A stretch of 42,293 bases of DNA from Actinomycetota bacterium (GTDB lineage Bacteria > Actinomycetota > Actinomycetes > S36-B12): positions 1 through 42,293 of the forward strand of contig VGBL01000017.1 of assembly GCA_016870515.1 (NCBI GenBank). The letters are read 5' to 3'. The notes beneath the pieces are model-generated. The model worked only from the letters and a program-made list of their open reading frames with translations. It searched no databases and had not been told where the DNA came from. The position numbers and the translations under genes were made by a program. The number at the start of each line of letters is the position of its first letter. The first letter of the stretch is position 1. Shown piece by piece: positions 13,854-32,536 of the stretch.

Positions 13854-14222
13854 TCAGGCCGCGCTGGCCGGCAGCGCCTTGCGAGCGATATCGACCATCG
13901 CGTCGAACGCCTTGGGGTCGTTGACGGCCATCTCGGCGAGCATCCTGCGATCGACCCGGATGTCAGCGGCCTTCAGGCCCTGGATGAACCTGTTGTAGGT
14001 CATTCCCCGGGCGCGCACCGCCGCATTGATGCGCTGGATCCAGAGGCGACGGAACTCGCCTTTGCGGTCTTTGCGGTCATTGAAGGCGTAGACGAGCGAG
14101 TGGGTGACCTGCTCTTTCGCCTTGCGATAAAGGCGCGACCGCTGGCCCCGGTAGCCACTCGCCTGCTCCAGGACCTCACGGCGCTTCTTGTGGGCGTTGA
14201 CGGCCCTCTTCACGCGTGCCAT
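13854..14222 (-). CDS. rplT: 50S ribosomal protein L20
   Basis: L20 is an early-binding 23S rRNA protein needed for large-subunit assembly, and in E. coli and Bacillus it represses its own operon by binding the mRNA. The protein has 122 residues, beginning [15 protein letters not shown], with a basic helical N-terminus and the conserved [16 protein letters not shown] and [12 protein letters not shown] segments. AAGGAG stands about seven bases ahead of ATG 14222. It is third in the infC-rpmI-rplT operon, 27 bases after rpmI. Autoregulation through the structured infC leader is possible but not shown. Confidence 0.98.
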
Positions 14223-14249: not shown

Positions 14250-14444
14250 TCACTTGGCGAGAAGGCGCTTGACCTTCTTGACATCTGCGGGCTTGACGGT
14301 CTCATCGAGCATCAGTCGACGGGTGCGCTTGCTCGGCTTGCCCTCCAGGAGGTGCCGGCGATTGGCCTGCTCATGGGTGATCTTGCCCGAACCGGTTATC
14401 TTGAAGCGCTTCTTGGCGCCACTGTGCGTCTTCTGCTTGGGCAT
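14250..14444 (-). CDS. rpmI: 50S ribosomal protein L35
   Basis: L35 is a small 64-residue basic protein of the large ribosomal subunit. [20 protein letters not shown] is the standard opening, followed by the [14 protein letters not shown] segment. AGAGGA six bases before ATG 14444 is a good ribosome-binding site. It lies 53 bases downstream of infC and 27 bases upstream of rplT, in the order conserved in most bacteria. Confidence 0.98.
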
Positions 14445-14497: not shown

Positions 14498-15076
14498 CTA
14501 GGCCTCGGCGACGAGTGCCTCGTCTTGGAGTTCGAGCGGTACGGCGGCCCGTGCGTGGGTCGCCTTGCTACGGTGCGGAGCGAGCACCATGATCATGTTG
14601 CGGCCGTCCTGCTTGGGTGACGACTCGACGAATCCGAGGTCCTGAACATCCTCCGCGAGCCTGGCCAGGAGCCGCAGGCCGAGTTCGGGCCTGGACTGCT
14701 CGCGTCCGCGAAACATGATCGTGATCTTTACCTTGTCGCCTGCCTTGAGGAACCGCACGACGTGACCCTTCTTGGTGTCGTAATCGTGCTGGTCGATCTT
14801 CGGCCGGAGCTTCATCTCCTTGATGACGGTATGTGCCTGGTTCTTGCGCGCCTCGCGCAACTTGACTGCGGCCTCGTACTTGAACTTGCCGTAGTCCATG
14901 ACCTTGCACACCGGAGGCTTGGCCATGGGTGCAACCTCGACCAGGTCCAGATCGGATTCCTGGGCAAGCCGAAGGGCATCTTCGATGCGAACGATGCCGA
15001 CTTGCTCACCCTGGGGACCGACCAACCGCACCTCGGGGACGCGGATCTTGTCATTGATCCTGGGCTCGACGCTGAT
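14498..15076 (-). CDS. infC: Translation initiation factor IF-3 (AUC start codon)
   Basis: IF-3 binds the 30S subunit, blocks premature 50S joining and proofreads start codons. The 192-residue protein has the N-domain (about 1-75, from [20 protein letters not shown]), the linker [17 protein letters not shown] and the C-domain (about 90-170, with [23 protein letters not shown] and [11 protein letters not shown]). No ATG, GTG or TTG fits the conserved start. The codon at 15076-15074 is ATC, with a perfect GAGGAGG (15087-15081) four bases upstream. Rare starts such as AUU or AUC are the known way IF-3 limits its own synthesis. The longer opening from an ATG at 15157 adds 27 residues unlike IF-3. 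Confidence 0.95.
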
Positions 15077-15268
15077 GGCGCCTCCTCGACTGCCTTCGCG
15101 CCGACGGCCTTCGCCGGCGCAGTTCCGAGGAGGGCTCCCCGACGCAGGAGCCGGCATGCGCGGATGCGGCCCCCGTGGGGCCGTGCGCGGACCTGACGCC
15201 CGAGGGCGGAAGGTGGGAACCGGGTTCCTCTTGCGTGACCGCCGGACCTTGGCTCGACAGCCGAACGA
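15077..15268 (-). promoter_or_regulatory. Structured 5' leader of the infC-rpmI-rplT operon
   Basis: About 190 untranslated bases carry a chain of inverted repeats in the direction of transcription. CGCCC/GGGCG lies at 15197-15201 with 15204-15208. CGGCCCC/GGGGCCG lies at 15167-15173 with 15177-15183. GGCTCC/GGAGCC lies at 15133-15138 with 15147-15152. A seven-pair stem (one G-U) lies at 15100-15106 with 15112-15118, ending 13 bases before the Shine-Dalgarno GAGGAGG. IF-3 and L20 operons are autoregulated in other bacteria, so a control function is plausible. I cannot match this leader to a named RNA class. Confidence 0.5.
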
Positions 15269-15304
15269 GGCGAAAGGCTACCAGGCAGGACGGCGTCGAG
15301 CCAA
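15249..15304 (-). promoter_or_regulatory. Long inverted repeat overlapping a candidate infC promoter
   Basis: TTGGCTCGAC at 15249-15258 is the exact reverse complement of 15295-15304. GCCG/CGGC pairs just inside extend the stem to about 14 pairs with one bulge. It begins two bases after the SseB-like gene's stop, so it may terminate the hisG transcript, although no T-run follows. On the minus strand the same segment holds TTGGCT (15304-15299) and TAGCCT (15280-15275) separated by 18 bases, a possible -35/-10 pair that would start infC transcription near 15268. The two readings are not exclusive. Confidence 0.4.
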
Positions 15305-15306
15305 AG

Positions 15307-15759
15307 TCAGGGTGGGCCGGCCAGCGCGCGCAGGGTCGGACCGTCGATCGCGAATCGCACCGGTCCGGCCACGTCGACGAGCACCCCGTCGGCCCCCTCT
15401 TCGAGGGCCGCACGGGCGACATCGGGTGCGCGGGCTGGCACGGGACGAGCGACCGGATCCCAGGCACGCAGGGTCTCGAGCGAGGTGAAGGCCAGCAGGC
15501 CGCGGCGACCGTCGGCCTGCACGAGGCTGACGGCGGCCATGTGGCTGGATTTCCCGCCTCCCCCACCGCCGGCGGCAACGGCCACGATCGGAACGAGCAG
15601 GCGTGCTCCCGCGAGGAGCAGGTCCAAGGCCGTATCGGCGTCGTCTCCAGCGAGCGCTTCTTTGAGTCGGGGGTCCGCAGAACCGTCGTCGTCGGCGAAG
15701 TCCGTCGGGGCCTGGATCAGTCGGTCATTCCCTGCGGCGCTGGCCTCGTCGAATGACAT
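15307..15759 (-). CDS. SseB-like protein of unknown role
   Basis: The 150-residue acidic protein resembles the SseB N-terminal domain proteins often found between hisG and infC in actinobacteria; the assignment rests on the pattern and the position. Supporting segments are DPRLKEALAG near 30-39, LDLLLAGARLLVPIVAV, the glycine run with GGKSSHMAAVSLVQADG, LAFTSLETLRAWDP and a C-terminal EEGADGVLVDVAGP. A run of six glycines with neighbours is odd but lies at a likely loop. ATG 15759 is two bases after the hisG stop, so it is in the same transcript. There is no membrane segment or catalytic motif. Confidence 0.8.
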   Translation of the reverse strand: MSFDEASAAGNDRLIQAPTDFADDDGSADPRLKEALAGDDADTALDLLLAGARLLVPIVAVAAGGGGGGKSSHMAAVSLVQADGRRGLLAFTSLETLRAWDPVARPVPARAPDVARAALEEGADGVLVDVAGPVRFAIDGPTLRALAGPP

Positions 15760-27264: not shown

Positions 27265-27292
27265 GAACTTCCTCCATCGTTGCGAGCGGGTA

Positions 27293-27404
27293 CCGCGCTT
27301 GCCGTCCGGGTGGATCGGCCGAGTCCTCACCCGGGGCACCCCACCACGCTCGCAGGGTTGCCGGCCAGCAAGCCGGGGCTACGCGCTGACGCTCATGACG
27401 CACA
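27293..27404 (-). promoter_or_regulatory. SAM-IV-type riboswitch upstream of metK
   Basis: The leader matches, from memory, the SAM-IV consensus of actinobacteria. In transcript order it has GTCATGAGCG (27399-27390), GCCCCGGCTTGCTGGCCGGC, AACCCT, GGTGGGGTGCCCCGGG, GTGAGGAC and downstream GGACGGCAAGCGCGG. GTC and GAC can close the P1 stem, and CCCCGG and CCGGC pieces make the internal helices. A TAGGGT hexamer at 27413-27408 could be the -10 box, placing the transcript start just before the aptamer. The element ends about 30 bases before the metK start codon. Family choice between SAM-IV and related SAM-I/IV forms is not certain. Confidence 0.85.
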
Positions 27405-31676: not shown

Positions 31677-32536
31677 GACCGCTCCCCCGGGGGCACGGGC
31701 GCACCTAGCGCATCAGCCGGGATCGACCCGACATCGTCCCAGCGCACGCGCTCGCCACGGAAGACCGGACCCTCGACGCATGACCGAACCATGCGGGTGA
31801 CGGCGTCGTCTCCGATCACGGGGAGGACGCAGGTCATGCACACGCCGATGCCGCACGCCATGGCTTCTTCCACGGCGCATTGGCTGTGGGCACCGCGCTG
31901 TCCGGCGAATCCGGCGATGGCCGCGAGCATGCCCATGGGTCCGCAGCCGTAGACCACCTCAGCATTGGCCTTGTCCATGACACTGGGCAGCAGGTCCGTG
32001 ACGCGCCCGGTGTCTCCGAGGGAGCCATCCTCCGTCGTTATGGTCACGGTCGACGCGATGCGCTTGCCCTCAAGCACTCCGAAGAGCTTCTCCTCGGTCG
32101 AGGCACCAAGGAGCATGTCGACCCGGCAGCCACGCGAGCGCAATTGCTCCGCGAGCATGAAGAGCGGGGCAGCACCGTAGCCACCGCCGACCAGCACGCA
32201 GCTCACCGGCTCCCTCGGCAGCGAGAACGGCCGGCCTAGGGGTGCGATGATGTCGAGGGAGTCGCCCCGGCGCCGTTGGGTGAGCCAATGGGTGCCGGGT
32301 CCGGAGTCCGCAACGACGACGTCGAGCGTGCCGCCGTAGATGCCCCGCGACTGGACACCGTAGATCGAGAAGGCCCGCCGCAGGATGAGCGACGATGAGT
32401 CGAGATCACCGATGGCCAGGGCGGAGAAGTGGCCGGGACGCGTCAGCTCGGGCACACCGGGGGCGGTCACCGTGAGCACGAAGTACTGGCCAGTTCGCCG
32501 CACGGATACGACCTCGCCACGCACCTGGAGCGGCAT
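31673..32536 (-). CDS. pyrK: Dihydroorotate dehydrogenase electron-transfer subunit (PyrK-like)
   Basis: PyrK carries FAD and a 2Fe-2S cluster and passes electrons from PyrD to NAD+. The 287-residue protein has the FAD site RRAFSIY at 53-59, the NAD-binding GGGYGAAP at 117-124 and GCGPMGML near 198-205. The cluster cysteines are Cys228, Cys233, Cys236 and Cys253 (ACGIGVCMTC ... RSCVEGPVF). It overlaps carB (TGATG) and pyrD (ATGA), so the two subunits are coupled for equal synthesis. Confidence 0.95.
   Translation of the reverse strand: MPLQVRGEVVSVRRTGQYFVLTVTAPGVPELTRPGHFSALAIGDLDSSSLILRRAFSIYGVQSRGIYGGTLDVVVADSGPGTHWLTQRRRGDSLDIIAPLGRPFSLPREPVSCVLVGGGYGAAPLFMLAEQLRSRGCRVDMLLGASTEEKLFGVLEGKRIASTVTITTEDGSLGDTGRVTDLLPSVMDKANAEVVYGCGPMGMLAAIAGFAGQRGAHSQCAVEEAMACGIGVCMTCVLPVIGDDAVTRMVRSCVEGPVFRGERVRWDDVGSIPADALGAPVPPGERS

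Follow-up and report, generated by a model that had tools for sequence, protein, structure and literature searches.

The infC-rpmI-rplT operon analysed here is preceded by a stack of hairpins which, judging from sequence comparison, forms part of an RNA leader conserved across the Actinomycetes. This leader, including the copy in the window (the whole 42,293-nt stretch, contig VGBL01000017.1, in which the studied leader occupies positions 15077-15268, minus strand), is most likely a variant of the L20 leader that lies outside the formal cut-off of the Rfam family RF00558. We consider it probable that it constitutes the 5' untranslated region (UTR) of infC-rpmI-rplT, diverged from the L20 type, with predicted L20 feedback on the whole operon. 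Because this leader shares the core of the Bacillus L20 leader, expression of the operon is probably lowered by a ribosomal protein that it encodes itself.

Pfam analysis placed infC first, followed by rpmI and rplT, on the minus strand, in agreement with the original prediction of a leader of the IF3-L35-L20 operon; an SseB-domain gene (15307-15759) lies upstream of infC (Table 1). The window leader, being located upstream of infC-rpmI-rplT, has the gene context of RF00558. The coordinates and strand previously given for the stacked inverted repeats ahead of infC were also right, and the fold of 15077-15268 yields stacked stems. This segment fills the gap from a promoter-like pair to the infC start. 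A sigma-70 consensus scan found no promoter, and a TANNNT motif is present 32-80 nt ahead of the AAG in 172 of 177 leaders (a raw count, without control).

Table 1. Coordinates of the operon genes and of the elements of the leader in the window.
Feature	Position	Strand	Basis and remarks
infC (IF3)	14498..15076	-	Pfam IF3_N + IF3_C; AUC start codon 15076-15074
rpmI (L35)	14250..14444	-	Pfam
rplT (L20), proposed ligand	13854..14222	-	Pfam
Shine-Dalgarno (SD) AGGAGG	15081..15086	-	read in the sequence, ahead of the infC AUC
Hairpin e GCCGGCG/CGUCGGC, genus-specific, directly ahead of the SD	15098..15120	-	fold, genus covariation
CCUCCUCGG, capable of pairing with the SD	15125..15133	-	pairing p 0.033 in the window
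Ht hairpin GGCUCC/GGAGCC, in the position of the class terminator, without U tract	15133..15152	-	fold
P4 hairpin, 7 pairs around ACG, variable among relatives	15158..15188	-	fold only
P3 hairpin, ACCU/AGGU + inner CGCC/GGCG (4+4 pairs)	15191..15214	-	fold, covariation
P2 hairpin GGAAC-CCG-GUUCC	15216..15228	-	fold; strongest covarying pair class-wide
AAG, AA of the proposed L20 site	15230..15232	-	same place in RF00558 and 116/125 leaders (written descriptor)
P1 hairpin	15237..15262	-	fold; genus double changes in 3/8 pairs
R1 model match (class-wide Actinomycetes infC leader core)	15185..15294	-	32.3 bits, E 3.2e-4
Promoter-like pair TTGGCT-18-TAGCCT	15275..15304	-	by eye; predicted RNA start near 15268

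The infC start was obtained for 196 of 201 loci. Behind the SD the codon was AUC at 190 of 192 infC loci (four copies excluded), and AUU and GUC at one locus each, as read by a script that considered near-cognate in-frame codons only. E. coli infC has a non-AUG start as well, AUU. A second control, on IF3 alone, probably operates through the AUC start codon. In other Actinomycetota (L238, L241, L243 and L248) short leaders without the AAGNGGA core were found, with a GUC start of infC behind a GGAGGUGAUGCGG stretch. That the segment is coding, either for an IF3 extended to the in-frame ATG at 15157 or for a leader peptide, is extremely unlikely: the frame is open from 15157, but relatives within the genus (e.g. 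L005, L007 and L012) have in-frame stops shortly ahead of the AUC, there is no common uORF start in the conserved core, and the AUC with its SD keeps the same place at 190 of the 192 loci.

IF3 was matched in all 11 genomes of the window's genus and in 147 of the 148 of the class, and the loci comprised 80 named from genome contigs together with 80 further stretches. The covariance model R1 was built from 23 infC leaders, none from the window's genus and with the window outside the training set; these leaders were chosen for a P0 3' arm adjoining P3, a choice which favours P0. In a search of 182 kb at E<=1, R1 matched 97 of 100 infC loci (18 of the 100 being training loci). Of these matches, 95 were confirmed 30-320 nt ahead of infC and the other two lacked an assignable position; L122, L127 and L173 gave no match. 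The best R1 match in the window is the infC leader itself, upstream of infC and with P1-P3 covarying. A second, weak match at 31763-31838 (minus strand; 20.5 bits, E 0.043) is probably due to chance. The leaders have in common the core YGACCG-[P1]-NGC-AAG-N-[P2]-C-ACC-[P3]-GGU-CCGGUC, and those of the Kitasatospora type (L036, L037, L039, L045, L062, L075, L077 and L085) bear an insertion of ~30 nt in the P2 loop. When the best ten candidates per genome were scored, R1 found a match in at least 37 of 396 genomes, one in each. The idea, raised in PMC3207917, that the M. tuberculosis leaders of infA and infC are homologous is unsupported by this single match per genome among the ten candidates scored.

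The window leader is a real feature, because it is conserved well beyond chance, although the fold of the single sequence alone fails to show so. The folding energy of the 192 nt at 15077-15268 gave z -1.06 (30 of 200 shuffles equally or more stable) and that of a longer stretch of 247 nt z -1.89 (7 of 200); these values are not decisive, and single-sequence folding was therefore discarded as proof of structure. To the reading that the hairpins are chance products of G+C-rich DNA, which these energies, no better than those of shuffles, would favour, we attach almost no credence in view of the conservation and the covariation described below. It is refuted for the core, and P4 may still be a hairpin of this kind.

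Compensatory base changes, the check named in the original prediction, are present. In the R1-fitted alignment, which leans to the structure and includes five non-leader matches, 91.4% of cells pair and both partners change in 21 of 25 pairs, with 395 double-change cells against 116.5 in shuffled and 67-92 in slid controls. In a structure-blind test (MAFFT alignment of 121 leaders, tree-based null), the top four of 3916 column pairs all fell within P2 and P3, i.e. the fourth P2 pair, an inner undrawn P3 pair, the fourth P3a pair and one P3b pair (E 0.035, 0.058, 0.53 and 1.1, respectively); the fifth-ranked is not a structure pair. For this test, 177 of 195 leaders passed a motif filter and were thinned to 121, excluding L001, the window copy. 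AAGNGGA and CCCACC are invariant in the set because the filter selected for them.

Within the window's genus, 11 leaders gave 23 double-change cells against 10.3 in shuffles, located in P1, P2, P3, Ht and hairpin e. The arms of P1 (15262-15255/15244-15237) form 8 pairs, 3 of them G-U, and one P2 pair changes from A-U to C-G in two members of the genus. Both sides change in 3 of the 7 pairs of Ht (62.1% of cells paired) and in 3 of the 9 pairs of hairpin e (91.9%). Hairpin e occupies the same place in L003-L012, with strong covariation and an ANGGY-type loop; in L011 four U's follow directly. The closing helix P0 of R1 consists mostly of non-standard pairs in the window leader and, while it closes the core elsewhere in the class, it is unconvincing in this genus.

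RF00558 is the leader of the infC operon of Firmicutes, according to passages of PMC10931766 and PMC6097659. In the window leader neither this model (Rfam cut-off 58.7 bits) nor any other Rfam family gave a match at E<=10, and the RF00558 cut-off was passed by none of 30 genomes of the class. The sole above-cut-off Rfam match in the window is a SAM-IV riboswitch at 27290-27400 (minus strand, 89.7 bits); 3' of infC in another locus (L119:2132-2227) there is a sub-threshold match to the L31-Actinobacteria leader (27.3 bits versus a cut-off of 35). The comparison with Rfam L20 leaders that had been proposed fails by score but agrees in core layout. The RF00558 consensus reads AAG-N-[AGAAGC...GCUUCU]-C-[gCC...GGc + distal helix], followed by a U-tailed terminator, and the window at 15232-15191 reads AAG-A-[GGAAC CCG GUUCC]-C-[ACCU...AGGU with CGCC/GGCG], in which P3 corresponds to gCC/GGc and the distal helix. 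By consensus comparison and in the R2 alignment (see below), the window contains the AAG-N-[P2]-C-[RCC...GGY] core with a distal P3 helix. The earlier statement that the architecture matches no described class has to be abandoned, since this layout is that of RF00558, albeit unscored, and the Streptomyces counterpart is RF02830. A descriptor of the RF00558 order, written after the sequences had been seen, matched 116 of 125 leaders, compared with 43 of 2500 shuffled sequences; it had seven matches in the window (both strands), one of which is the leader.

Further evidence comes from Actinomycetota outside the class, represented by 20 stretches, of which two were short and 18 were scanned with Rfam (the script gave no infC start for L252 and L256). 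RF00558 matched four of the 18 infC stretches at E<=1: L249 with 56.1 bits, slightly under the cut-off, L246 with 42.3, L250 with 28.1 and L245 with 27.8. A second model, R2, was made from five of 12 outside-class leader cores, chosen because they were alignable. In a search of the window together with 63 infC loci, it placed infC leaders at ranks 1-8, the window at rank 7 (13.8 bits, E 0.25). It matched the leader in 13 of the 64 sources only (13 leaders among 27 rows), including all six sources from the window's genus.

These leaders also bear on whether the ligand is another one, i.e. IF3, L35 or a further factor, the likeness in AAG, P2 and ACC-GGU being convergence or chance. The nil score of RF00558 in the window and the helices P0 and P1, absent from RF00558, speak for such a ligand. 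Nevertheless, we regard it as unlikely, as the leaders of other Actinomycetota classes connect the two forms, rplT lies within the operon and the RF00558-order descriptor is rare in shuffles. According to a passage of PMC7247131, the features common to known L20 leaders and the rRNA site are an AA dimer plus two neighbouring G-C pairs; the AAG and CC/GG of the window core agree with this. The core also resembles 23S rRNA near H40/H41 directly (UAAGUGG versus CAAGYGG), over a stretch too short to count.

Under the preferred reading of an L20-type leader, we infer that transcription begins near 15268 and that P1 forms, followed by AAG, P2 and P3. Like the rRNA site, the AAG/P2/P3 core would present an AA pair together with two stacked G-C pairs; L20 in excess over new 23S rRNA would bind this core, with the expression of the whole operon being lowered as a result. 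In B. subtilis, L20 promotes the terminator, as described in PMC10931766. Of 121 leaders, 56 have a U-tailed hairpin with a score of at least 15 in the interval from core to infC, compared with 10 of 1210 shuffles, and these terminators lie mostly 40-130 nt ahead of the infC start; in much of the Actinomycetes, the output is presumably such an intrinsic terminator. For Streptomyces, a candidate two-way antiterminator, GGCGGUGCUCC versus GGAGCCCCGCC, was recognised by eye. A passage of PMC3207917 reports for M. tuberculosis infC a 326-nt 5' UTR, whose reads exceed those of the gene 2.6-fold during growth and 4.9-fold at stationary phase, an excess which fits attenuation.

No U-tailed intrinsic terminator was found ahead of infC in the window: Ht, 56 nt ahead of the infC start, is followed by CUCCUCGG and no U run. 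As Ht has no U tract, the output in the window's genus would be U-less termination, Rho or an SD masked by CCUCCUCGG. The pairing of CCUCCUCGG with the SD reached a combined p of 0.053 over the 11 leaders of the genus, in which it showed no covariation (70.7% of cells paired versus 72.5% when shuffled), and SD masking is kept as one possible candidate output only. It could be supposed, rather tentatively, that an L20 sensor common to the Actinomycetes has two output modes, a terminator elsewhere and, in the window's genus, where the U's would have been lost, a translation switch with CGAGG-type, CCUCG-type and SD segments pairing in turn.

The Streptomyces form of the leader is the Rfam family RF02830, 'Scr1601', which is typed as sRNA. 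RF02830 matched 3 of 59 genomes, all of one genus and all at infC; its cut-off of 100 bits was exceeded in Streptomyces L030 and it had no match in the window. If the Rfam typing were taken literally, the leader would be a trans-acting small RNA, with infC regulation secondary. In addition to the typing, PMC8388888 states in a passage that expression of Scr1601 as ncRNA was confirmed. Yet its position is always directly 5' of infC on the same strand, the same paper locates a homologue in a UTR, and a passage of PMC3765725 (in which Scr1601 is not named) finds that 12 earlier sRNAs resemble 5' UTRs; a trans-acting role is therefore very unlikely.

If the L20 reading is right, L20 feedback on infC-rpmI-rplT, otherwise present in Firmicutes, Gammaproteobacteria and, as a candidate, Deltaproteobacteria, extends to the Actinomycetes including Streptomyces, and Scr1601 would be reclassified from small RNA to ribosomal leader. 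This reading would also agree with the abundance of infC 5' UTR reads in M. tuberculosis, and the intermediates would connect two leader forms regarded as unrelated by present models.

In the literature searched, we found no actinobacterial infC or L20 leader, and Table 1 of PMC7247131 contains no actinobacterial L20 leader. Compared with known systems, Scr1601 is this leader as it occurs in Streptomyces, where it sits at infC in all three matched genomes, differing in its sRNA typing and in a 209-nt model which is confined to one genus and misses the window. The E. coli L20 operator is similar in that L20 controls the r-protein genes of the cluster and IF3 regulates its own gene; unlike the window leader, it is built of a long-range pseudoknot and a hairpin and leaves infC uncontrolled (as described in PMC10931766). 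The Deltaproteobacteria L20 leader candidate shares the proposed rRNA mimicry, through an AA dimer plus two G-C pairs, but, by the description in a passage of PMC7247131 and not by model comparison, has a different scaffold. In contrast to RF00558, the window leader is unscored by that model, has a P2 stem of GGAAC rather than AGAAGC, has P1 as an additional helix (most of the Actinomycetes have P0 too) and lacks the U-tailed terminator. With RF00558 it shares the operon, the AAG-N-P2-C-P3 order, RCC/GGY and the distal helix, as well as, in many of its Actinomycetes relatives, a terminator ahead of infC.
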